DNA of 47,653 nt from the NCBI RefSeq assembly GCF_000794385.1, contig NZ_JTJB01000057.1, forward strand, positions 1-47,653, given 5' to 3'. This stretch comes from Thermus sp. 2.9. GTDB lineage: Bacteria; Deinococcota; Deinococci; Deinococcales; Thermaceae. Below the pieces are notes generated by a model that did not search any database, was not told the DNA's origin, and was given only the letters and a program-made list of their open reading frames with translations. The position numbers and the translations under genes were made by a program. Below are positions 66 to 45,851 of this stretch, piece after piece (within the stretch, counting starts at the first letter, position 1; each line of letters begins with the position of its first letter).

Positions 66-2063
66 TTAGTCCCCCACCTTATGGGTGCCCGGGTGACGCA
101 GTTTATCCCACTCCGTCTCGTCTGCCACACTTAGAGGGACCGTCCCCGGGTGGTAAAGCCCCCCTGCGGGCTTGCTGAGCCAGTAGACCTGAGCCACCGC
201 TTGCTCAAGCGGTAGATCGCCCTGGGCCACCTGTATCCGCAAGGCTCGAGGCCATCCCGGATGACCAGGATGAACGAGGAGATACGCCATCTCCGAAGAG
301 GCGAGAAAATAGGTCCCGAGGGGAAGCTTTTTGTGGGAGAAGCGTAGGTTGGTTCGTTCTATCCACACCACAGGGTGGTGGGTCCAAGAGAGGATGTTGT
401 CCAGCGCCTGGCCACTCCCGAGGAAGTGAATCACCAAACGGTGGGGGAGTTCCTCGGTCTTGGGCAAACCGCTCCCCTTGGCGAGGACAAAACCCTCGGG
501 GCTTAGAAGGCGCCAAAGATAGCCTTCGTCGCGACTGGTTCGTAGGCCAAGGATGGGGTGGTCAAGACAGGCCAAGGCATAGGGGACAGCGTTGCAGAGT
601 CTGACCAGGAGGTCGTACGCAAGGGAATGTATGTTTGGCGGAGTCCCCATGAGCGTTTTAGGCTGCACCACCTGGCCTTTGGAGTTAGGGAAAAGGCTCT
701 TCAAGCTCTGGATGAGGCGCTTTAAAGCTTCGCTTCTCACTTCGGCCGGAGCCAGGATCAGGTTGATCTGGGGCTGCGCACCTTTCTCCAGCGTTGTCGC
801 TTCTGAGGGTGCACCACGGGCCACCTCTCCAGTTAGAGGAGCGTACCGAATGGCGGGGAGGAGGAGTTGGAGCTTCACACCCAGTCGCTCCAGTTCTTGT
901 TGGAGGGAATTCTCCCCATTGGCGGGCGTAAAGTGGGCCAGGATTTCCTTACCTTTTTGCGACTTCTCTAAATCCGAGCGCGGCACCAGGTGGTAAAGCA
1001 AAAGCCATCTGGGGTTATAGCTGTGCTTAAGGGTGTGCGCCAGTTTGCCCGAGCGTTGCGGGGGCCTGCCCCGTTCTTGGATCTCTATATGGGTGCTGGG
1101 TTCATATTGGGTAACCGAGGTAACCTCCCCGTTAACTCCCTCGGGAAAGACGGGGCGAATATATAGGCTTTGGGGGGCGCTCAGAAAGCCCAAGCGTCGC
1201 ACCTCCTTCGGTTCCGCAGCCATGCCTTTGGCCATGCGTAGGCCTCGGCCCTCCACCCGAAATAGAGCATCTGTAGGAACGGCGAGGGGCTCGGGTACGA
1301 GGAAGTCTTTAAAAGAGCCCACCTTCCTCAGGAGATCCGCAAAGTCAAACTGGCTCGCCTCAAAAGCCTCTTGCAAGGAAGAACGAAAGCCGCCTTGCTT
1401 CCCTGTAATGCCGAGTTGGCTTAGGTGTCCAGGATGGAGAAGCAGATGGGCTTTGGGCCCGGCTTCTTTCCAATCGGTGGATTTGCCCGTGGCAAGCTCT
1501 ACTGCCTTAAGACGATGTCTAGGGGCGGCCGCCTCTAAGGTGCTCATAACCCCCTTGTCCAGAGCGCCAAGGGGCAGATCGCTGAGAACTTGCTTGGAAA
1601 GGTCCACCAAAGCGTAAAAGATCCCGTCCAAGCAAATGGCTTCTATGGAATAGGCCTGATGTTGCCGAATGGGAAATGGCTTGCCCTGATGGGGGCCAGA
1701 AAGCAGAAAGCCTTCAATGCGTACCCAGTCTTCCGGATCTACCCACAAGCTTCCCGCGCGGTAAAAGCCGTTTTGTTTAAGGATGCGGTTAATGTGGCTG
1801 TTGAGCGCTAGGGTGCGTTCCCGGGTGGAGCTTGCGGGAGCATCCCCTAGGTACTTGGCAGCGACCTCGGGGCGCTCCAAAGCGAAGACCCAAACCTCCT
1901 GTCTCACGATTTGTGCGTACCAACCTTGACTACGAAGGTACGCTATAAACCCCTCAGGGTTTCTGTGTACATAGCGAAAAACGCGTCCATTAGCCGGGTC
2001 CACTTTAAGGGGAAAAAGGTTCACGTAAAGGGGGCTTGCGCTCCATGGTGCCGCGGTACGCAT
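66..2063 (-). CDS. long prokaryotic Argonaute with inactivated PIWI domain
   Basis: A 665-residue protein with pAgo architecture. The N-terminal start (YVNLFPLK, residues 13-20) resembles pAgo N domains. A linker/PAZ-type segment is rich in pAgo signatures (LVDLSKQVL, 152-160). A MID-type segment contains GQVVQPKTL (463-471). A PIWI C-terminus (about 580-655) has the YFLASSEMAYLLVHPG and PRALRI strands. The PIWI catalytic IGID-type motif reads ILGLRTSRD (504-512), with Arg508 where the first catalytic Asp is expected. The VIHRDGR motif is VIHFLGSG (544-551), and only about 30 residues separate the two, leaving no room for the Glu finger. Cleavage is therefore probably lost, as in long-B pAgos that guide or recruit a partner. 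The ATG follows a GGAG site and lies 4 nt after the methylase stop, so the three genes form one operon. G+C is visibly lower than in the neighbours, suggesting transfer. The family call is by eye against known pAgo motifs. Confidence 0.8.
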   Translation of the reverse strand: MRTAAPWSASPLYVNLFPLKVDPANGRVFRYVHRNPEGFIAYLRSQGWYAQIVRQEVWVFALERPEVAAKYLGDAPASSTRERTLALNSHINRILKQNGFYRAGSLWVDPEDWVRIEGFLLSGPHQGKPFPIRQHQAYSIEAICLDGIFYALVDLSKQVLSDLPLGALDKGVMSTLEAAAPRHRLKAVELATGKSTDWKEAGPKAHLLLHPGHLSQLGITGKQGGFRSSLQEAFEASQFDFADLLRKVGSFKDFLVPEPLAVPTDALFRVEGRGLRMAKGMAAEPKEVRRLGFLSAPQSLYIRPVFPEGVNGEVTSVTQYEPSTHIEIQERGRPPQRSGKLAHTLKHSYNPRWLLLYHLVPRSDLEKSQKGKEILAHFTPANGENSLQQELERLGVKLQLLLPAIRYAPLTGEVARGAPSEATTLEKGAQPQINLILAPAEVRSEALKRLIQSLKSLFPNSKGQVVQPKTLMGTPPNIHSLAYDLLVRLCNAVPYALACLDHPILGLRTSRDEGYLWRLLSPEGFVLAKGSGLPKTEELPHRLVIHFLGSGQALDNILSWTHHPVVWIERTNLRFSHKKLPLGTYFLASSEMAYLLVHPGHPGWPRALRIQVAQGDLPLEQAVAQVYWLSKPAGGLYHPGTVPLSVADETEWDKLRHPGTHKVGD

Positions 2064-2067
2064 AGGT

Positions 2068-5000
2068 TCACTCCTCTTTGGATAGCCGTTCCCAAGCTTC
2101 CAGCACGAGCCTCCGGGTGCGGTACTCGCCGTAGCGCTTGATCTCCTTTTCCCTGAGTACCCGGAAGGTTTCCCCGGGGAAGGCGCTGGCTCGGTGGCGC
2201 TTCTGGTAGTGGCGCTCCTCCAGGGGGTCTTCCACCTCCTCGTAATCCGACAGGATGTCGGCGAGCTCCTTTGGCGTGAGGTCCTTGGGGTCCAGGATGT
2301 AGCGGAGTTGCTTGCGGTTCAGGCCGTAGAGCCTGGCGTAGTAGGCGTCAAGCTCGGCCCGGAGGATGGCCCGCCGCTCCTCGTCCCAGCGGAAGGGCGG
2401 GAAAGGGTAGGGGCCCTCTAACCACTCGGGGGGTTCGTCTGGGTGGGTTTTGGCCTTTTCCCGCCAGCGCCCGATGGCTTCCCGGAGGCCCTCGTCCGCT
2501 TCCTCCCAGACTTCCTGGGCGAAAGGCGCCAGGTCCCAGGCGGTGTAGGTGAGTTCCAGGACGCGGGGGACGATGAAGCGGAGGTCTTCTTCCGTGTAGC
2601 GGTCGGGGGGGAGGATGGGGAGTTGCTTCACCACGTGGTATTTAAGATGGGTTCCGCCGATTTTTTGCCGGGTGGCGTAGTCCACCACCAAGGCGTTGAG
2701 GGAGCCCAGTAGGAGAAGAGCTTCCGGGGCAAGGCAAGAAGGAAGCATCTGCAAGAAGGTATCCCCTGCACCCACGCGCGGGTACACGGAGGCGATTAGG
2801 GTGCGCTCGTTAGTGGCATTGGTAATATCCCGCCACCCCATGGACCAAGGGCGCTCCCACCGCCATATCACATTTCCCTGCCTGTCCCTGACCTCGAGGC
2901 GCCCCTCCACCTCTTGAGCCGCCACAAAGTAGCGGGGCAGGGGCAGGCGGGTGGGGTCTTGGTGCTCTTCAGGGGTGAGGTCCCGGGTGTCTTCCCCCTC
3001 GTAGGTGGCGAAGCGGTGGTCGTAGTGCCAAATCATCTTGGCCTCGTAGAGGGGCAGGTAGACCTCCTCGCCCCGCACGAAGCGGTTCCCCACCAGGCGG
3101 AAGCCTTGGGCCAGAAGGGCTTCCTGGGTGCGGAAGAGGTGGGCGTCGTTGGACATGTGAAAGAGCGCCAGGAACCGCACCCCCCAGGGGTTCTCTTCAA
3201 GCCCCTCCCGCCACAGGACGGGCACCCTCCGGTAGACCGCCCGGGTGAGCTCGGCGTCCTGCCGGGTGCGGAAGACGGGGCAGGTCTTGGTGTTGGGGTT
3301 GAGGAGGGCGAAGTCCTCGGGGGCCAGGGAGAAGACCCGGGCAGCGTCCTCCAGGTCCTCGGGGCGGGTGAGGAAGAAGGCGAGGCGGGCGGGCTCCTTC
3401 CCCGGGGGCTTGAGGGCGAAGACGGTGAACTTGTAAGAGCGGTGTACCCCGGGAAAGAGGCCCTCCCGGTTCTCAAAGTCGTAGAGCGCCGCAAGCTCCC
3501 CCCGCTCCACCACCTGGGCGAAGAACTCCTTGTTGGAGTCGTCCGTGGCGATGCCCGTGGGCAGGACGAGGCCCGCCCTTCCCTGGGGGGCCCGGAGGGC
3601 GCGGGCCAGCTCGGCGAAGAGGGGATAGGTGTTCACGTCCCCTCGGGCGGTGAGGGGAAAGCGCCCTGAGTGGCGCACGAACCCCGAGACCGCCTCGGCC
3701 TCGGCCAGGGCCTCCTGGTAGGCCCGGAAAAGCTCGGGGTTTTTCTCTTTTAGGGCCTGGATGAGGCGCTTGCGCTTGGCGGCGTTCTCCGCCTGGGCGA
3801 TCTCAGGGGCCTTGTCGGCGAAGAACTCCTTGTCCTGGAGCTTCAGCTTCTCCCACGGCGGGTTCCCCAGCACCACGTCAAACCCGCCCTTCTGGAAGAC
3901 ATCGCGAAACTCCAGCCACCAGTGGAAGAAGCGGTGGCGGCGCTTGGCGGCCTCTATAGCGTGGCGGGTGGGCGGGGAGAGGTAGGAGCTTCCCTCCCAC
4001 TGGGCGAGGGAAGCCCCCATCTGCTGGGCGAGCCAGTTGAGGCCCTGGGCGTCGGGGAGGCGCACCCCGGGGGTGGGCCGGAGGAAGAAGGCGGCGGTCC
4101 AGTAGTCGGCCAAAAGCTCCCACTTCCGCACCTCCTCGCTCTCCCGCCACGCCCGGTAGCGCGCCCGCTTCTCCTCCACCTGGGCCGCGTTCTCCTCCTC
4201 AAAGTCCAGGAAGGGGGGTTTGAGGAGGGGGAAGAGGAGGCTTCCCGCCCCGGGGCCGAAGCTGAGCCCCTTGCGCACCTCCTTGGGCACGCCCTCCCGG
4301 TCGTAGGCCTCCTTGGGGATGCCCCGCGCCAGGAAGTCCTCCGGGGCCCCCACCAGGGAGTTCCCCACCTTCAGGTGGTGGTCCAGGAAGGAGAGGGGCT
4401 TGCCCTTGGCGGCGGAGGCCACCCAGAGGGCGAGCTTGGCGAGTTCCACCGCCATGGGGTTCAGGTCCACCCCGTAGAGGCACCGGGAGGCCACCAGGTG
4501 GCGGGCGGCGTAGAGGGCCTCCAGGTCGTCCTTCCCCTGGCCCCGCACCTCCAGAAGCTTCTCCGCCAGGTACTCCAGGGCCGAGATGAGAAAGGCCCCG
4601 CTTCCCATGGCCGGGTCCAACACCTTGAGGGAGAGGAGGGCCTCTTCCTGCTTTTTGGGGTCCTCCCCGGCCTCCCGGAGGCGGGCCTCCACCACGGGGA
4701 CGAGGCTTTCCTGCAGGACCAGCTGGACGAGCTCCCGCGGGGTGTAGTAGCTTCCCGAGGCCTTGCGCTCCAGGAGGTGGCCCTCCAGGGTGTAGCGCCC
4801 GTCCACCATCCTGGGGGCCAGGGAGAGGATGCCCTCGTAGACGTGGCCGATCTCCTCCACCTCGAGGTCCCGGTAGTTGATGCGCTCCAGGGCCCCTTCC
4901 CGCTCCACGTGGGTGAGGAGGCGGATGGCCCGGAGGAGCTCGCCGTTCTTGGGCCGGGGGAGGTCAGGATGGAGGGCCCGCTCCCCGGGGTCCAGGACGC

Positions 5001-6072
5001 CCCCCGTGAGGAGGGGAAGCCCCTCCGGGGCGAAGAGCTCCCCGTTCAGGGCGGGCACGCCCAGGCGTTCGTCCCCCCGGTAGACGAGGCGGAAGGTGGC
5101 GAGGAGCTTTTCCCAGAGGTCGGTGTGGCGGTCTTCGTACGCCACCAAGAGGTCCTGGCGGGAGGCCTTTTCCCTGAGGGCGCTCACGCCGTACTCCCGC
5201 TCGTAGACCCAGGAAAGCTCCCCCCCGTGGGGGATGAGGTCGCGGCTTTCGGCGTAGAGGAGGAAGAGGAGGCGGTAGACGAGGCGGAGGAGCTCCTCGT
5301 GGTAGGCCCTGAGGTGCTCGGGGTCTTGGAGCTTTCGCCGCAGGTCCTCGGTGAGGAAGGCGTTGCCCAGGACCTCGAGGGCCTCCACCACCCCCTTGCG
5401 CAAGGCGTCGCGGGCCTTGATGCCGCTTTGGCGGGCCGCTTCGTAGTAAAGGTCCAGGGGGGTATTCTCGCCGTTACCTTTTTGGAAGCGGCTAGGGGAG
5501 AGGAGAAGGAGGAGGATTTGGAACTCCTTGAGGGCTTGTTCCCGAGGGGCCTCAAAGAGCTCCACCAGGTTGAAGGCCACGTACCCCGGAAGGGAGACGT
5601 GGTAATACTTCCGCAAAAGCCGCACCTCCCAGGGGGCCGCCAGGATGCCCCAGCTTTGCGTGGGGTGCAGGTTGAGGTAGGTCTGCAAAAGGGCCTGCGG
5701 GCTCTTTTCCCTGCGGCTTGGCCGTAGGTCTAGCTCGGTGGCCACCAGGTGCAAGGGTGGGGCATCCTCCCCGTCCCAGCCCCGGTGGCTGATGGGGAAG
5801 GACTGGTCCCCCGCCGCAAGGTGGCTTCGGTTGAAGACGGGCTGGAAGCCCAGGGCGCGGAAGAAGGGCAGAAGCCAGGACTCCCGGGCCCGGGAGGTGT
5901 CCCTAAGTTGGGATAAGGGCGGCTGGCGCTCGTAGAGGCTCAGCAGGGCGTAGAAGCGGTGCCGCACCTCCTCAGGGGTCAGGGCGAGCTCCTTGAGGGC
6001 CTCGAGGCGGGTCAGGCTTTGCAAGAACTCCTCGGTGAAGAGGCCGCCGGAAACGCGTATGGCGTGGAACAC
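2068..6072 (-). CDS. large N6-adenine DNA methyltransferase (DrmMI / Eco57I-like)
   Basis: About 1334 residues. Numbered from the upstream in-frame TTG at 6078 (two codons earlier), it has YYTPREL at 445-451, the SAM-binding motif DPAMGSGAF at 488-496, a VDLNPMAVELAK segment (537-548) and the catalytic NPPW at 739-742. This is the gamma-type N6-adenine methylase order, followed by a long target-recognition and C-terminal region. The N-terminal 200 residues include a segment ending WGILAAPWEVRLL, similar to the N domain of type IIG/ISP enzymes where a PD-(D/E)xK nuclease normally sits; I see no convincing catalytic Lys. The start is placed at GTG 6072 because the AGGAGG site is 6 nt upstream; the TTG at 6078 directly abuts that site. 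The gene begins 12 nt after the helicase stop. Its likely role is self-marking or target sensing for the same defence operon. DrmMI of class 1 DISARM is the closest known analogue. Confidence 0.85.
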   Translation of the reverse strand: MFHAIRVSGGLFTEEFLQSLTRLEALKELALTPEEVRHRFYALLSLYERQPPLSQLRDTSRARESWLLPFFRALGFQPVFNRSHLAAGDQSFPISHRGWDGEDAPPLHLVATELDLRPSRREKSPQALLQTYLNLHPTQSWGILAAPWEVRLLRKYYHVSLPGYVAFNLVELFEAPREQALKEFQILLLLLSPSRFQKGNGENTPLDLYYEAARQSGIKARDALRKGVVEALEVLGNAFLTEDLRRKLQDPEHLRAYHEELLRLVYRLLFLLYAESRDLIPHGGELSWVYEREYGVSALREKASRQDLLVAYEDRHTDLWEKLLATFRLVYRGDERLGVPALNGELFAPEGLPLLTGGVLDPGERALHPDLPRPKNGELLRAIRLLTHVEREGALERINYRDLEVEEIGHVYEGILSLAPRMVDGRYTLEGHLLERKASGSYYTPRELVQLVLQESLVPVVEARLREAGEDPKKQEEALLSLKVLDPAMGSGAFLISALEYLAEKLLEVRGQGKDDLEALYAARHLVASRCLYGVDLNPMAVELAKLALWVASAAKGKPLSFLDHHLKVGNSLVGAPEDFLARGIPKEAYDREGVPKEVRKGLSFGPGAGSLLFPLLKPPFLDFEEENAAQVEEKRARYRAWRESEEVRKWELLADYWTAAFFLRPTPGVRLPDAQGLNWLAQQMGASLAQWEGSSYLSPPTRHAIEAAKRRHRFFHWWLEFRDVFQKGGFDVVLGNPPWEKLKLQDKEFFADKAPEIAQAENAAKRKRLIQALKEKNPELFRAYQEALAEAEAVSGFVRHSGRFPLTARGDVNTYPLFAELARALRAPQGRAGLVLPTGIATDDSNKEFFAQVVERGELAALYDFENREGLFPGVHRSYKFTVFALKPPGKEPARLAFFLTRPEDLEDAARVFSLAPEDFALLNPNTKTCPVFRTRQDAELTRAVYRRVPVLWREGLEENPWGVRFLALFHMSNDAHLFRTQEALLAQGFRLVGNRFVRGEEVYLPLYEAKMIWHYDHRFATYEGEDTRDLTPEEHQDPTRLPLPRYFVAAQEVEGRLEVRDRQGNVIWRWERPWSMGWRDITNATNERTLIASVYPRVGAGDTFLQMLPSCLAPEALLLLGSLNALVVDYATRQKIGGTHLKYHVVKQLPILPPDRYTEEDLRFIVPRVLELTYTAWDLAPFAQEVWEEADEGLREAIGRWREKAKTHPDEPPEWLEGPYPFPPFRWDEERRAILRAELDAYYARLYGLNRKQLRYILDPKDLTPKELADILSDYEEVEDPLEERHYQKRHRASAFPGETFRVLREKEIKRYGEYRTRRLVLEAWERLSKEE

Positions 6073-6084
6073 CCACAACCTCCT

Positions 6085-8838
6085 TTAGCTCGGCACAGGG
6101 GCCAAGAGGGTGATGGCGAGCAGCTCGGAGCCCAAGACCTCCAGCTGGTCTAGGGCTTGGAAGGCCTGGGGCAGGACGCCGTAGGCCCGTTCTAGGTCCC
6201 GCTTTAGGGCCGTTCGTTCGGCCTTTACCCGGGCCAAGGCTTCCTCGGCTCCCCGCTTCCCTAACTCCTCCAGGGGAGCCTTGAGGGCCCGCTCGGCCAA
6301 AGCCTTGGCCTGGTCCTGGGCGAGGGGGCGTGCCTTGAGCCGGGCGCGCCAAAGGGCTTCCGCCTCCTCGGGGGGGAGTTCGCTTAGATCCAAAAGGCGC
6401 ACCGCCCGGCGCACCAGGGTTTCCAGCACCTCGCCGCCCGGTCCGGCGAAGCGGGCCCGGTAGTGGTAAAGGGCGACAGGGGGGGTACCCAGGGGGCCGG
6501 GAAAGGCCATGAGGGCGGTGCGGGCCCCGTCCAGGTCCCGGTAGGCCCGGTAGCGCAGGTGGGCTATCAGGTGCTCCACCAGGGGATGGGAGAGGTCCAG
6601 CACCTCCACCCCCAGGGGCGCTTCCGGATGGAAGCTGAAGGGGCCAAAGGCGTTGGGCAACCCGGGCACCGCTTCCCCCGTGCCCCGGGTGGCGGTGTAG
6701 GGGTCTTCCCCCTCCACGCGCCAGCCCAGGTAGCGGAGCCCGTCCAGGACGAAGGCTTGCAAGACCTGGGGACTCCCGGCCCGTTCCAGGGCTTCTTGAA
6801 GGCGGCGCTCCACGTCGGGGAGGCTAAACTCGCTGTGGCCGTAGAAGCCTTCCTGGATGGCCTTCTTTGCCGCCTGCAGCTCTGTGGCCTCTTCCTCGGC
6901 GAAAAGGGGGGTTTGCAGCCGCCGTTCGCCCCGCCAGTCCTGGGACCACAGGGCCTCGAGGCGGCGCCGCAGGTAAGCCTCTTCCCCGAAGAAGGCGGGT
7001 ACCACCCCCAGTTCCTTGCGGATGCGCTCCGCCTTTTCCAGGAGGAGGCGGAAGACGGCCACGTCAAAGGAGCGTTCATAGTAGAGGGTCCGGATGCGGA
7101 CCACGGGCTCGGGTTGACCGAAGCGGTCAATCCGCCCGTTGCGCTGCTCCAGGCGGTTGGGGTTCCACGGCAGGTCGTAGTGGACCAGCTGGGCCGCGTA
7201 GTGCTGCAGGTTGAGGCCTTCGGAGAACACATCCGTGGCCACCAAAACCCCCACCTGCTCCTTGGCGAAGGCCTGGAGCACCTCGTTGCGTTCTTCCTCA
7301 TCCATCTCCCCGTGCACGGCGAAGACGGGTTGGGGAATGGTCTCCCGAAGCTTTTCCACCAAGTATTCCAGGGTGTCCCGGTAGCGGGTGAAGATCAGGG
7401 TCCGGCCCTTCCCGAGCCGTAGCGGGTCCTGGAGCATTTCCCGTAGGACCTCCAGTTTGCTGTCTTTGCGCCAGGTCTTCAAGTGGCGGAGGAGGGCCTC
7501 GAGGTAGCCCTTTTCTGCCTGGGCTCGGGCTTGGTCCGCCAAGCTAAGTTCCAGGCTGGCCTCCGCTTCCTCGGGCAGCAAGCGCTCCGGCGCGGTGTCA
7601 AACAGGGCCGCCACCTCGTCGGCGGTGGCGTCCATTCCCCCGGCCAGGACGCTTTCCAGGAGGGCCTTACGCCGTTCCAAACTCCTTTGCAACGCCCGGG
7701 GGGAACTGGTGGCGCGGCGCATCAGGTGCATGGCGAGCCAGCGCCCGAGAACGGGCACCTTGGCCGGGTCGGGGTCGTAAACCTCCGCTTGGTAGCGGCG
7801 CACCGCCTCAAAGAGTTCCAGCTCGGCGCGGTTGGGCTCCACCGCCACCTCCTTGGTGTCCCGCTCCGGGAAGGGGCTTTTTTTGCCTTCCTTGCGGAAC
7901 CACTCTTCCACGTCCTTTCGGCGGCGCTGCACCACGTGCTTCTTGGCCGCTTCCCGGTCCAGGCTTCCCCCTTTGAAAAGCCCCAACCCCCGGGCGTCCA
8001 GGTGTTCCAGGAGGCTATAGAAGCTTTCCGTGTAGCCGTTGTGGGGCGTGGCGGTGAGGAGGAGGAGGTGGGGCACCCGGCGGGAAAGCTCCCGTACCAG
8101 GCGGTAGCGCTCCATCTGCTTGCCCTTTTCCGTGGGGGGGCGGGCGGCCATGTGGGCTTCGTCCACCAAAAGGAGGTCCCAGTCTTGCAAGAGGACCAGG
8201 TTCCGGACCTCGTCCTGTTTGGCGTAGTCCACGCTGGCGATGACCCGGTCAAAGTGGGCCCAGGGGTTTGCTCCCGGGGGGAGGGTGCGGGTGAGGCGCT
8301 TCAGGTTGGGCCCGGATAGGATTTCAAACTCCAAGTGGAAGAAGCGGCGGAGCGCCTCTTGCCACTGGGCGAGGAGGTGGGCTGGGGCCAGGACCAAGAC
8401 CCGTCGGGCCTTGTTCCGCAGAAGGAGCTCCTTCACGATGAGGCCCGCCTCCACGGTTTTGCCTAAGCCCACGTCGTCGGCGATCAGGAGGCGCACCTCC
8501 GGCAGCCTCAGCGCCATGAGCAAGGGCACGAGCTGGTAGTTGGCGGGGACCACCCGCGAGCGCTGCAGGGCCAGGAAGGGGGCGTCGGCGTGGAGGGTGG
8601 AAAGCTCTAGGGCCCGGAGGAGCAGGTCGTGCAGGGCGGGATCCCCAGGGGTGGTGGGGGGAAGCCCCAAGGAGGTGAGTTGGAGGGCTTCCCCTTCCAG
8701 CGGGAGGTAGAAGAGGGCTTCCTCATCGGTGTCCACGGCGCGGGCAAAGAGCACGTCCCCGTGCCGGCGTTCCAGGCGGTAGTCGCGGCCTCGAGCCCGA
8801 AACAAGGTCCCGGGTTGGAAGGAGTCCACTGGGTTCAC
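6085..8838 (-). CDS. SNF2-family helicase (DrmD-like), first gene of defence operon
   Basis: A 917-residue SF2/SNF2 ATPase. The Walker A motif is DDVGLGKT (121-128), the Walker B motif is DEAH (226-229) and motif III is LTATPHNG (261-268). The C-terminal RecA lobe has LIFTRYRDT (481-489), VATDVFSEGLNLQ (533-545) and the arginine-finger motif QRNGRIDRFGQ (565-575). Residues 1-100 and the 300 after the helicase core are family-specific extensions. It presumably translocates on double-stranded DNA and works with the methylase encoded immediately downstream; SNF2-type DrmD next to an adenine methylase is the signature pair of class 1 DISARM. The start is GTG with an AAAGGAGG site. The 163-bp gap upstream separates it from the TRAP operon, so it probably has its own promoter. 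It could also be a helicase of another restriction-like system, and the drmA/B/C genes are not seen in this window. Confidence 0.88.
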   Translation of the reverse strand: MNPVDSFQPGTLFRARGRDYRLERRHGDVLFARAVDTDEEALFYLPLEGEALQLTSLGLPPTTPGDPALHDLLLRALELSTLHADAPFLALQRSRVVPANYQLVPLLMALRLPEVRLLIADDVGLGKTVEAGLIVKELLLRNKARRVLVLAPAHLLAQWQEALRRFFHLEFEILSGPNLKRLTRTLPPGANPWAHFDRVIASVDYAKQDEVRNLVLLQDWDLLLVDEAHMAARPPTEKGKQMERYRLVRELSRRVPHLLLLTATPHNGYTESFYSLLEHLDARGLGLFKGGSLDREAAKKHVVQRRRKDVEEWFRKEGKKSPFPERDTKEVAVEPNRAELELFEAVRRYQAEVYDPDPAKVPVLGRWLAMHLMRRATSSPRALQRSLERRKALLESVLAGGMDATADEVAALFDTAPERLLPEEAEASLELSLADQARAQAEKGYLEALLRHLKTWRKDSKLEVLREMLQDPLRLGKGRTLIFTRYRDTLEYLVEKLRETIPQPVFAVHGEMDEEERNEVLQAFAKEQVGVLVATDVFSEGLNLQHYAAQLVHYDLPWNPNRLEQRNGRIDRFGQPEPVVRIRTLYYERSFDVAVFRLLLEKAERIRKELGVVPAFFGEEAYLRRRLEALWSQDWRGERRLQTPLFAEEEATELQAAKKAIQEGFYGHSEFSLPDVERRLQEALERAGSPQVLQAFVLDGLRYLGWRVEGEDPYTATRGTGEAVPGLPNAFGPFSFHPEAPLGVEVLDLSHPLVEHLIAHLRYRAYRDLDGARTALMAFPGPLGTPPVALYHYRARFAGPGGEVLETLVRRAVRLLDLSELPPEEAEALWRARLKARPLAQDQAKALAERALKAPLEELGKRGAEEALARVKAERTALKRDLERAYGVLPQAFQALDQLEVLGSELLAITLLAPVPS

Positions 8839-9001: not shown

Positions 9002-10309
9002 CTAACCCCCCGTCATGGTGCGGGGAAGCCAGGTGGCGAGCCCCGGGAAGGCCACCAGTAGGGCCACCATGAGGAGGAGGACGCCCATGAAGGGCAAGGC
9101 GTAGCGGGCGATCTGGAAGAGCTCCTCCCCGGTGAGGGACTGGAGGACGAAGAGGTTGAAGCCCACGGGAGGGGTGATCTGGGCCAGCTCCACCATGAGC
9201 ACCAGGTAGACGCCAAACCACAGGGGGTCCACCCCGATGGCCTTCACCACGGGGAGGATCACGCTGATGGTGAGGACCACGATGGAGATACCATCCAGGA
9301 AACACCCCAAGACGATGTACACCAGGCTGAGGAAGAAGATGAGGGCCAAGGGGCTGATCCCCGCCTCCACCGCCCAGGTGGCGAGGGCCCGGGGGATGCC
9401 GGTGAAGCCCATGGCCAGGGTGAGCACCCCTGCCCCCGCCAGGATGAGGCCGATCATGCTGGTGGTGCGCACCGCCCCCAGGAGGCTCTCCCAGAAGAGC
9501 GTGGGGGAGAGCTCGCGGTTTAGGGCGGCGAGGAGAAAGGCCCCCGCCACCCCGATGGCCGCCGCCTCCGTGGGGGTGGCCACGCCGAGGTAGATGGAGC
9601 CCAGGACCAGGAGGATGAGGAGGAGCACAGGGAGGACCCCAAGGAAGTCCCGAAGGGCCTCCCCCAGGGGCTTGACCGCCTCTTTTGGCAGCTCGTCCCG
9701 CCTGAGAAAGGCGAGGAAGGCCAGGAGGAGCATGAAGAGGAGGGTGAGGACCACCCCCGGCACCACCCCGGCCATGAAGAGCCGGGCCACCGACACCTCG
9801 GCCATGACCCCGTAGACGATCATGACGATGCTGGGGGGGATGAGGAAGCCCAAAGTACCCGCCCCGGCTAAGGAGCCCAGGGCCAGGGCCTTGGGGTAGC
9901 CCCGCCGTAGGAGCTCCGGCAGGGTGAAGCGGCCCACGGTGGCGGTGGTGGCGGCGGAGGAGCCGATCACGGCGGCGAAGAGGGCGCTCGCCACCACGTT
10001 CACGTGGAGAAGCCCCCCGGGAAGCCGGGAGAGGAGGGGGGCGAGCCCCTGGAAGAGCCCCTGGGCCAGGCGGGAGCGGTAGAGGACCTCCCCGAGCCAC
10101 ACAAAAAGGGGCAAGGCGGCCAGGCTCCAGCCCGAGGTGGCGGTCCAGAGGGCCGTGGCCAGGTTGGGGCCCAGGGGGGCGGTGGTGTAGAGGGCCAGGG
10201 CCAAAAGGCCCACCAGAAGAAGGGCGAGGCCCACGTAGACCCCCAGGCCCAAGAGGGCGAAGAGGGCGAGGATGAGGACCAGGCTGGCCTCGAGGAGGTT
10301 CACCGCCAC
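9002..10309 (-). CDS. dctM: TRAP transporter large permease (DctM family)
   Basis: A 435-residue polytopic membrane protein, the usual DctM length. It has the family's long run of hydrophobic helices and conserved loops, including SSAATTATVG (about 118-127), the LIPPSIVMIVYG segment and ITPPVGFNLFV near the C-terminus. It forms the Na+-coupled transport channel of a tripartite ATP-independent periplasmic importer, together with the DctQ and DctP subunits encoded just upstream. Its start overlaps the DctQ gene end by 10 nt. It is the last gene of an eight-gene operon that also holds an ABC importer. The substrate is not deducible from sequence, though TRAP systems typically carry organic acids. 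Confidence 0.93.
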   Translation of the reverse strand: MAVNLLEASLVLILALFALLGLGVYVGLALLLVGLLALALYTTAPLGPNLATALWTATSGWSLAALPLFVWLGEVLYRSRLAQGLFQGLAPLLSRLPGGLLHVNVVASALFAAVIGSSAATTATVGRFTLPELLRRGYPKALALGSLAGAGTLGFLIPPSIVMIVYGVMAEVSVARLFMAGVVPGVVLTLLFMLLLAFLAFLRRDELPKEAVKPLGEALRDFLGVLPVLLLILLVLGSIYLGVATPTEAAAIGVAGAFLLAALNRELSPTLFWESLLGAVRTTSMIGLILAGAGVLTLAMGFTGIPRALATWAVEAGISPLALIFFLSLVYIVLGCFLDGISIVVLTISVILPVVKAIGVDPLWFGVYLVLMVELAQITPPVGFNLFVLQSLTGEELFQIARYALPFMGVLLLMVALLVAFPGLATWLPRTMTGG

Positions 10310-10761
10310 CCCCTTACCGTCCGCCCGAAGGCCTCCAGGAGGGCCAAGCTGAAGAAGCTAAGCCCCAGGGCGAGAAAGCTTTGCGGGATCCAAAGGGGGA
10401 GGGGCAGGAGCCCCGGGGCCAGGTCCCCGTAGCGGTGGCTTTCCAGCACCCGGGCCCAAGCGTGGTAGGTGGCGTAGAGGCTTCCCCCAAGGCCAAGGAG
10501 GAGGGAAAGCGCCTCGAGGGCCCTCCTCGGTCCCGGGGGAAGCCGCTTCGGGAGAAGCCCCACCCGGATGTGCCCCCCGGCCCGCAGGGTGGGGGCGAGG
10601 CCCAGGAAGATGAGCCCCGCCGTGGCGAAGCCGGCGAGCTCCAAGGCCGAGGGGACTACGAAGCCGAGAAAGCGCCCCACCACCTGGGCCAGGATGACGA
10701 GGAGGATGAAGAGGGCCATGAGGGCCGCCAGGACCTCGGCCAAGCGGAAGAGGAGGTTCAT
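10300..10761 (-). CDS. dctQ: TRAP transporter small permease (DctQ family)
   Basis: 153 residues with four hydrophobic helices, the DctQ pattern: a first helix from about residue 9 (LAALMALFILLVILAQVVG), then the characteristic segment ELAGFATAGLIFLGLAPTL. It links the DctM channel to the periplasmic binding protein. The start is set at the ATG whose bases overlap the TGA of the upstream binding-protein gene (ATGA); an in-frame extension further upstream lies inside that gene and looks non-coding. Confidence 0.88.
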   Translation of the reverse strand: MNLLFRLAEVLAALMALFILLVILAQVVGRFLGFVVPSALELAGFATAGLIFLGLAPTLRAGGHIRVGLLPKRLPPGPRRALEALSLLLGLGGSLYATYHAWARVLESHRYGDLAPGLLPLPLWIPQSFLALGLSFFSLALLEAFGRTVRGWR

Positions 10762-11714
10762 CGCCCCAAGTACTGGCGGTAGACCTTGATCCCCGTGGCC
10801 CCCGCCTGGCGTTGCCACTCCAAGACCATGGTCTGGCCCACCTTTTTGAGTTCGGTCAGGAGCTGAGGCGAAGGCTTCACCACCTGCATCCCCCGGCTCG
10901 CCAGGGTCTTTAGGGCCTTCTCCTCCTGCTCTTGGCTGAGCTGCCAGCCCCGCTCCTCCGCTCGCCTTGCCGCCTGTAAGAGGGCCTCGCGGTCATTCGG
11001 GGAGAGGCCCTCAAAGGCCCTGCGCCCGATCACCACCATGTTCTTGGGGATCCAGGCCTTCACGTCGTAGAAGTAGCGGGCGAAGTCCCAGGCCTGGCTG
11101 TCCACGCCGGTGACGGGGGAGGTGACCATGGCCTCCACGATCCCGGTGGCGAAGGCCTGGGGGATGTCCGCCGCCTCCACCTGCACCGGGGTCATGCCCA
11201 AAAGCTCCGCCAGCCGGGCGGTGGCGGGGTTGTAGGCGCGGAAGCGCATCCCTTTAAGGTCTTGGGCCGAGTTCACCGGGCGCTTGGTGTAAAGGCCCTG
11301 GGGCGGCCAGGGGACGGCGTAGAGGAAGACCACCCCCCGCTGGGCGAGCCACCGCTCCACCTCGGGGCGCTGGGCCTGGTAAAGCCGCCGCGCCTCTTCG
11401 TAGCTCGTGGCCACGAAGGGGATGGAGTCCAGGTTGAAGAGGGGGTTCTCGTTGGCCAAGAGGGACATGAGGACCTCCCCCAGCTGGACCTGCCCGTTGC
11501 GCACCGCCGGGAGGATCTGGGGGTGGGGGAAGAGGGACCCCCCGGGGTGGACGGTGACCTTGACCCGCCCCCCCGTGGCCTCCTCCACTTCCTTGGCGAA
11601 CTGGAGGATGTTCTGGGTGTGGAAGTTGGCCGGGGGATAGGGGGTGGCCATGTTCCAGGTCTGGGCCTGGACCGTGAGGGAAAGGGCTACCAGGGCGAAC
11701 AGCGCCTTTCGCAT
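10758..11714 (-). CDS. dctP: TRAP transporter periplasmic binding protein (DctP family)
   Basis: 318 residues with a short Sec signal peptide (MRKALFALVALSLTVQAQ) and the DctP fold. NMATPYPPANFHTQ begins the mature protein. GGSLFPHPQILPAVRNGQVQ is followed by the conserved GMRFRAYN with the carboxylate-binding Arg. It captures an extracytoplasmic substrate for DctQM. The start has a GGGAGGTGA ribosome site. It lies 22 nt after the ABC binding-protein gene, the only real gap within this operon, so translation here is not strictly coupled. Substrate unknown; the neighbouring cyclase suggests a carboxylate or an amide-derived acid. Confidence 0.9.
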   Translation of the reverse strand: MRKALFALVALSLTVQAQTWNMATPYPPANFHTQNILQFAKEVEEATGGRVKVTVHPGGSLFPHPQILPAVRNGQVQLGEVLMSLLANENPLFNLDSIPFVATSYEEARRLYQAQRPEVERWLAQRGVVFLYAVPWPPQGLYTKRPVNSAQDLKGMRFRAYNPATARLAELLGMTPVQVEAADIPQAFATGIVEAMVTSPVTGVDSQAWDFARYFYDVKAWIPKNMVVIGRRAFEGLSPNDREALLQAARRAEERGWQLSQEQEEKALKTLASRGMQVVKPSPQLLTELKKVGQTMVLEWQRQAGATGIKVYRQYLGR

Positions 11715-44663: not shown

Positions 44664-45851
44664 GAATTATGTGTATGGGTTTGTGTAAAAAAGGGGGGGT
44701 ACAGGAGCCATACAGGAGGTACCCCATGGACCCGTCTACCCTGCAAGTCCTGCTACGGGAAGCGGTGAAGGAAACGGTGACCGAGGTGCTCCAGCTCCTC
44801 CTGGAGGCGGACCGGGACGCCTTTCTCCGGCAAAAGGGCGGGCGCGAGAACGGCCACTACCCCCGCAGGTTGGAGACCGCCTTCGGCCAGGTGGAACTGG
44901 CCATCCCCCGGGATCGGGAAGGGCGGTACTACCCCAGCTTCCTCCGCTATCGCGGGGACTCCGTCAACCAGCCCTACGCCCGCCGCCAGGTGGACGTGGG
45001 GGAGGTGGCGGTGGCCTTGTACGCCGCCGGGGTCACCCAGCGCAAGGCGGCGGAGGTGATGAGCCTCCTCCTGGGCCACCGCTACACCCACGAGACCAAG
45101 GGCGCCATCACGGACGAGGTGCTGGAGAAGGCGGAGGCCTTCCGGGGGAGGCCCTTGCCGGAGGAGGAGGTGCTGAGGGAGGGACTTGGGGTGGAGCGGG
45201 TTGCTTTGCCCGAAGGGCAAACATCTTGGATCCGTGTACGTGGCCCTTGGGGTGACGCCGGATGGGGCGCGGCGGGTGCTGGGCTTCTGGCTTTTGCCCA
45301 CGGAGAACGCCTTAGCCTGGGAGGGGGTTTTGCGGGAGCTATGGGAGCGGGGCCTGCGGCGGGTCTTGCTTTTCCTCACGGATGGGCTTCCGGGTATAGA
45401 GGAGGCCATCCGGCGGGTGTATCCCCTGGCGGAGTGACAGCGGTGCGTGGTGCACCAGGTGCGGGGGAGTTTGAGCCAGGTGCGGTCTCGGGACCGGGCT
45501 GCCCTGGCCCAGGACCTGCGGGGGGTTTACATGGCGGAGAGCCGGAGGGAGGTTTGGGGGGGCAAGTATCCCGCTTTGGTGGCGGCCTGGTGGAAGGGTG
45601 CTTTGGCCGTACTTGCGGAGCACCAACCTCATGGAGCGGTTGATTCGGGAGATCAGGCGGGGGACGAAGGTGCGGGACCACAAGTTTCCTCGGCCGGAGG
45701 CGGTGTTCAAGCTTTTGTACTTGGAGGGGGAGCACTTGGAGGGGAGGTGGGGGGAGCGAAGGCTGAAAGGGTTTGCCGAGGCGCGGGAGGTGTTGGAGCG
45801 GATGCTTCAGGAGCGGTATGCCCCCCGTACACAGACCTTGACACATAACTC
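44664..45851 (+). mobile_element. IS256-family insertion sequence, degraded
   Basis: Imperfect terminal inverted repeats of about 24 bp bound it. The left end begins GAATTATGTGTATGGG and the right end, reversed, begins GAGTTATGTGTCAAGG; both then read TGTGTA. The 1.19-kb length is slightly under the usual 1.3 kb, consistent with an internal deletion. No target-site duplication was found by eye in the 9 bp at either end. Confidence 0.75.

Follow-up and report, generated by a model that had tools for sequence, protein, structure and literature searches.

The 665-aa protein encoded at positions 66 to 2063 on the minus strand of the window, the 47,653-nt stretch of Thermus sp. 2.9 DNA that we analysed, was identified as a divergent long prokaryotic Argonaute (pAgo) with a predicted catalytically dead PIWI site, based on its intact ORF, its homologs, structure comparison with Foldseek and VIA-align, and PADLOC matches to PprPIWI and pAgo models. 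Its gene (ago) lies in an operon with genes of the anti-phage system ARMADA. With a probability of about 0.55, we place the protein in a small family of rapidly evolving dead long Argonautes, which our searches recovered only in Thermus and, as decayed remnants, in a related genus, and which would serve ARMADA as an accessory recognition subunit for its helicase-nuclease.

The reading frame of ago runs intact from an ATG at 2063 to a stop at 66. When 50 genomes of the family and 111 of the phylum were searched, three clear relatives were recovered, all from the same genus, Thermus: one in genome G042 (55% identity), one in Thermus caliditerrae (G031, 44%) and one in Thermus scotoductus DSM 8553 (G040, 44%). 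A chance ORF or a misassigned frame was ruled out by these homologs at 44-55% identity, the homologous ORFs in other Thermus genomes being full-length at 55% and 44% identity. The G040 copy is frameshifted, possibly through a sequencing error, and the three intact copies (648-665 aa, 44-55% identity) share long invariant blocks in PIWI. The same genome searches found ago fragments in G028 and G008. No intact free-standing copy occurred among the 111 Deinococcota genomes, and direct protein searches found no relatives in plasmids, phages (tblastn) or IMG/VR; a second contig scan gave matches in T. caliditerrae and T. scotoductus alone. The family has four known members, and the association counts given below are accordingly small and not phylogenetically independent.

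Neither Pfam nor NCBIfam gave a match in the 665-aa protein, and searching PDB sequences with phmmer and with profiles of ago gave none either. Among the PADLOC profiles, the PprPIWI and pAgo models matched the C-terminal part weakly but collinearly (PprPIWI at 5e-6 for the window copy and 3.6e-8 for G031), direct hhalign comparison with TtAgos was weak (E 0.0027) and covered the C-terminal PIWI only, and pairwise scoring against shuffled sequences gave borderline values. A template-free AF2 model built from the four family members had a mean pLDDT of 44, reaching 70-85 over much of the PIWI core, and a separate MID-PIWI model had a mean confidence of 49; the low confidence is attributed to there being only four sequences. 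In the Foldseek search with the full model, 18 of the 18 top matches were Argonautes, the best being MpAgo (5ux0) over the whole length (E=1.1e-9), and the first non-Argonaute appeared only at E=0.03. All VIA-align rows (50/50) were likewise Argonautes, and residues 487-633 of the model superposed on residues 456-642 of TtAgo (3dlb_B) with a Z of 10.3 and 2.8 Å over 133 residues. The separate MID-PIWI model matched PfAgo at 4e-6. On the strength of these models, the protein is an Argonaute with a MID-PIWI fold. The sequence-only reading had arrived at this identity by inference, and it was borne out by the fold comparison together with the weak profile matches; superposition on TtAgo and comparison with pAgo families, which it had named as checks, both pointed the same way, the former through a low-confidence model and the latter through C-terminal matches.

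The PIWI domain (approximately residues 500-650; positions 114 to 566, minus strand), delimited by VIA-align to 3dlb_B, is shortened by a missing Glu-finger segment. MAFFT alignment of the family with TtAgo misaligned the catalytic region, and residues were mapped instead from the structural alignment range and the conserved G506, H546 and G549. The catalytic positions of TtAgo, which we take to be numbered D478, D546 and D660, were located on this basis. Structural alignment and family columns placed Arg508 (codon 540-542, minus strand) at the first catalytic Asp (D478), where the four family members carry R/R/H/V; Arg508 was rejected as a conserved signature residue, and the conserved feature is the loss of Asp. 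In place of the third-Asp motif, the family columns align VIHFLGSG (residues 544-551; positions 411 to 434, minus strand), with L548/G549 at the site itself. This position reads L/M/L/R or G across the four members, with no acidic residue in either column (548 or 549), and H546 and G549 of the motif are invariant. The distance from the first to the third motif is 40 residues, compared with 68 in TtAgo (D478 to D546), indicating loss of the Glu-finger segment. At the fourth DEDX position all four members are acidic (D/E/E/D at 648), with Asp648 (120-122, minus strand) aligned to TtAgo D660 by the hhalign C-terminal alignment and the alignment columns. No Asp is invariant across the four members in residues 430-660, which argues against an alternative tetrad. 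Invariant residues of the family include R574, E591 and E620, and an intact DEDX elsewhere in PIWI was rejected on the lack of an invariant Asp and the inability of E591 and E620 to form a DED set.

From sequence and model together, the PIWI site is predicted to be dead, with cleavage by the known mechanism lost. The Asp-to-Arg exchange, the replacement of the third-Asp motif by VIHFLGSG and an interval too short for a Glu finger had all been read from the letters alone, and each was recovered, Arg508 at exactly the position given. The broader claim that the site is destroyed stood for three DEDX positions and failed for the fourth, which keeps its acidic residue; a tetrad elsewhere in PIWI, which that reading had named as the observation that would overturn it, was looked for as described above. 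Its view that the Argonaute fold is kept while the nuclease site is lost agrees with the structural comparison to TtAgo and other Argonautes and with the absence of D1, E and D3 from all family members. The DEDX tetrad is absent from all short and long-B pAgos and is thus not required for membership among Argonautes.

The window is the whole of contig C57, which ends past ago, and carries the gene order armA-armB-ago. The first operon gene, armA (6085 to 8838, minus strand), encodes a 917-aa BrxHII/RapA/DrmD-type SNF2 helicase with intact Walker A and DEAH motifs. It is followed by armB (2068 to 6078, minus strand), which was assigned from profile matches and motifs to a 1336-aa PglX/DrmMI-type N6-adenine DNA methyltransferase with intact GSG and NPPW. 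In the window as in G042, 4 nt separate the armB stop from the ago start; joint transcription and translational coupling of ago with armA and armB are probable. The same genome (G000) encodes on contig C56 a DruE/YprA-like nuclease-helicase of 1751 aa, ArmC, 81% identical to that of G042; its 5' end lies 64 nt from the C56 contig end, and C56 and C57 are separate, without overlap. The four genes armA-armB-ago-armC are contiguous in G042. The G031 locus runs from the end of armB (78% identical) through ago and, on the other strand, DprA-like and phosphoribosyltransferase-like genes to armC, and the order in G040 is armC-armD-ago; armB and ago are thus adjacent in the window, G042 and G031. ArmC matches DruE in G000 (C56), G042, G031 and G040, with intact GSGKS and DEVH motifs and a Vsr-like domain retaining the conserved E, RFDF and DG..H residues.

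Judged by gene content and order, the armA/armB/armC set is that of ARMADA (PMC12458937), a system related to DISARM and Druantia. Standard class 1 DISARM was not supported, as the third of the large genes resembles DruE/YprA and the ORFs checked included no drmB or drmC; ARMADA fits better. This context lends strong support to the earlier proposal that a separate protein must act as effector: ago shares an operon with armA and armB, and the same genome encodes an ArmC whose helicase motifs are intact and which has a Vsr-like nuclease domain.

Several further features of these loci were recorded. Several ArmC proteins, those of G042, G040 and the SNM strains, end in ~80 residues that resemble the C-terminal end of BrxL at ~50% identity (L009 2711-2960, L037 18270-18517) and are absent from ArmC of G000 and G031; a BrxL gene adjoins armA in loci L037, L038 and L064, all without an intact ago. 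Part of an Mrr-type restriction endonuclease gene, in the opposite orientation, follows armC (L014, G000:C56 3-374). The operon in the window is adjoined by a TRAP transporter (DctPQM, 9002-11714), with no further defence genes, and a Mutator-family transposase gene is found at 44669-45643. The window DNA at ~43.7-44.6 kb is ~98% identical to DNA beside a disrupted ARMADA copy in G008. This copy (G008:C192, L062, 5744-9816 and 15099-18227), in a genome of another genus of the family, is ~99% identical to armA and the start of armB and to the end of armC, while the rest of armB, ago and the start of armC are replaced by ~5 kb of other sequence; it reflects either contamination or disruption after a recent transfer.

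Among described systems, the closest is ARMADA type II (Bell et al. 2025 preprint, PMC12458937), with a RapA-like helicase ArmA, a PglX-like methyltransferase ArmB and a YprA-like ArmC with a Vsr-type nuclease in the same order. The ArmA-ArmB pair of this type is present in the window, and ArmC following ArmB was read in G042 as armB-ago-armC, the G000 armC being on its separate contig. A RelE-UvrD ArmD, the GajB-like helicase of type II, is found in G040 and in T. thermophilus SNM plasmids. What sets the Thermus loci apart is the ago gene, which sits in the armB-armC interval or follows armD; the terms Argonaute, PIWI and Ago do not occur in the main text that describes ARMADA. A further difference is that none of the three genomes in which ago is intact has armD; ArmD follows ArmC "almost always" in type II (PMC12458937), and its absence lowers support for assigning the Thermus ago loci to this type while remaining compatible with it.

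Inactive long pAgos (long-B and PIWI* long-A; PMC6299218) share with the Thermus protein a long Ago, an inactive PIWI and adjoining nuclease and helicase genes. The Thermus protein differs in being too divergent for Pfam Piwi, with a shortened PIWI and a mostly non-canonical MID motif, and in having a whole ARMADA system as its partner rather than a single nuclease. Of the features that mark the long-B clade (an inactive PIWI, PAZ* and a YK motif, besides placement by MID-PIWI), the window copy shows the inactive PIWI and lacks the YK motif, at a divergence too high for placement in a tree. PprPIWI is the best PADLOC match of its C-terminal PIWI region, which recalls PIWI-RE; PIWI-RE proteins, however, have a different N-terminal domain and DinG-type helicase partners (PMC10991935), whereas the Thermus ago has its best fold match in MpAgo over most of its length and ARMADA genes as partners, and no DinG-like gene was recognised among the ago neighbours examined.

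With TtAgo, the protein shares the MID-PIWI fold and element order, a C-terminal PL-x-x-A-D motif and the host genus; TtAgo keeps DEDD, whereas the dead ago is without D1, the Glu finger and D3. A TtAgo-type gene with conserved catalytic motifs is also present in G000 (G000:C18:24043-24759; L034), which thus apparently encodes one active and one dead Argonaute as judged from their catalytic motifs, and another is present in G042. Short pAgo systems combine an inactive Ago with a partner effector. The SPARTA/SPARDA short pAgos resemble the Thermus case in having a dead Ago whose effector step would pass to a partner; they are short and paired with an APAZ-effector, whereas the Thermus ago is long and its candidate effector is a helicase-nuclease. 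Division of labour between an inactive pAgo and a partner effector has been proposed or is known (PMC6299218).

The distribution of ago was compared with that of the other ARMADA genes. An armC clade, delimited by E<=1e-100 against G042 ArmC, is present in 4 of 27 Thermus species genomes, and ago is found in the same four; the chance of this overlap under independence is 1 in 17,550, a figure to be read with the caution that species are not independent. Searching with G000 ArmC at E<=1e-60 revealed more distant armC-like genes (~36% identity) in G028, G041 and G044, with an ago fragment only in G028. The armD gene is absent genome-wide from G000, G042 and G031 and within the genus set is found in G040 only. 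The three intact agos are therefore those of genomes without armD, and both agos in armD-containing loci are broken, although these numbers are small; the second is an N-terminal remnant directly behind armD, beside an IS630 transposase, in T. thermophilus SNM3-3. ARMADA without ago occurs in T. thermophilus SNM1-7, on Allomeiothermus silvanus pMESIL01 and in G010, indicating that Ago is not required for ARMADA. Ago-positive and Ago-negative loci are not separated in the ArmC tree, which fits gain and loss of ago.

In the favoured explanation, a dead Ago acting as recognition subunit of ARMADA, the Ago would bind nucleic acid without cutting it, either as guide plus invader DNA or as ends or single-stranded DNA from replicating invaders. 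It would then pass the target to ArmC, whose YprA/DruE-like helicase and C-terminal Vsr-like nuclease would do the processing, and ArmB would mark self DNA. Where genomes lack ArmD, the usual fourth component, Ago may take its place. The genus-wide co-occurrence with armC, the 4-nt coupling to armB and the two positions inside ARMADA argue for selection to stay with the system; guide or target binding, contact of Ago with ArmC or ArmB, replacement of ArmD and anti-phage activity are what we infer. The more specific version, in which a guide-loaded dead Ago directs ArmC to invader DNA, replaces ArmD and makes a DISARM/Druantia-like system nucleic-acid-guided, is put forward tentatively, as an unlikely form of the model.

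The same gene neighbourhoods allow ago to be a passenger with a function of its own, for instance in regulating or competing with the canonical TtAgo that the same genome encodes, since TtAgo-type genes accompany it in G000 and G042. The armB-armC interval looks like a variable cargo slot: T. thermophilus SNM strains have a toxin-antitoxin-like pair there, G002 has a HigBA-like pair together with DprA and further genes, and G010 and G059 have other genes again. A macro-domain-like gene is also found in this interval of Thermales ARMADA (small modules: L037 11746-12893 and 6994-7707; L063 13721-17945; L065 13143-18333), and an NYN-domain gene precedes armB in SNM strains. The second position of ago, behind armD in G040 and SNM3-3, would likewise suit an independent passenger. 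However, ago accompanies the armC clade in every species genome that has it, keeps its spacing to armB, occupies two different positions that are both within ARMADA, and is nowhere free-standing and intact in the phylum set, which makes an independent passenger improbable.

The MID domain bears on whether a guide is used at all. Its core (approximately residues 432-500; positions 564 to 770, minus strand) was examined in family alignment columns for the YKQTNK motif, which contacts the guide 5' end (PMC6299218). Q464, at the position of TtAgo Q433, is invariant in the four members, and a basic residue stands at or beside the K457 position. The first two residues of the motif are variable (E/Y/A/K at 445 and R/R/W/E at 449). 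The full set, in a region where the alignment is uncertain, reads E445 R449 Q464 Q467 R488 in the window and a near-canonical Y R Q N K in G042; G031 and G040 diverge more, which leaves the motif incomplete in every member but that of G042. The statement that the MID block is well preserved thus held for Q464 and the basic residue near K457 and did not hold for the first two residues in the window and two of the three relatives. Such variability, and the restriction of intact ago to genomes without armD, would suit an Ago that uses no guide and serves as a structural DNA- or RNA-binding subunit replacing the ArmD helicase module. The persistence of Q464 and of the basic residue, and the near-canonical set of G042, speak against this, and pAgos with divergent MID pockets such as MpAgo still bind guides (PMC6299218); we consider an unguided subunit more doubtful than an independent passenger.

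Sequence divergence and composition set ago apart from its operon. Between the window and G042, ago is 54-55% identical and its neighbours 73-83%, and its G+C content is 57% (63% at third positions) compared with 67% (84-89%) for armA and armB. The low G+C suggests separate acquisition, and together with the low conservation it fits either a later, separate acquisition or weak constraint. Differences at first, second and third codon positions of ago are 0.35/0.25/0.62; NG86/YN00 dN/dS is saturated, and the far smaller differences at the first two positions indicate that the protein is kept under constraint. A horizontally acquired Ago now decaying without function, as its fast divergence, the G040 frameshift, the SNM3-3 truncation and the G008 and G028 fragments might suggest, is very unlikely given this constraint and three intact ORFs with long invariant PIWI blocks.

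To our knowledge, how DISARM, Druantia and ARMADA discriminate invader from self DNA is not settled. A dead Argonaute inside ARMADA would offer a concrete candidate for a recognition subunit and would link pAgos to YprA-helicase systems. Our results suggest that a defence system built on a helicase-nuclease has acquired a partner that would bind nucleic acids and is absent from the main text of the paper defining it (PMC12458937). The blank Pfam and NCBIfam results also show that curated profiles can miss Argonautes such as the Thermus dead ago. Thermus is genetically tractable, and its heat-stable proteins favour structural work.
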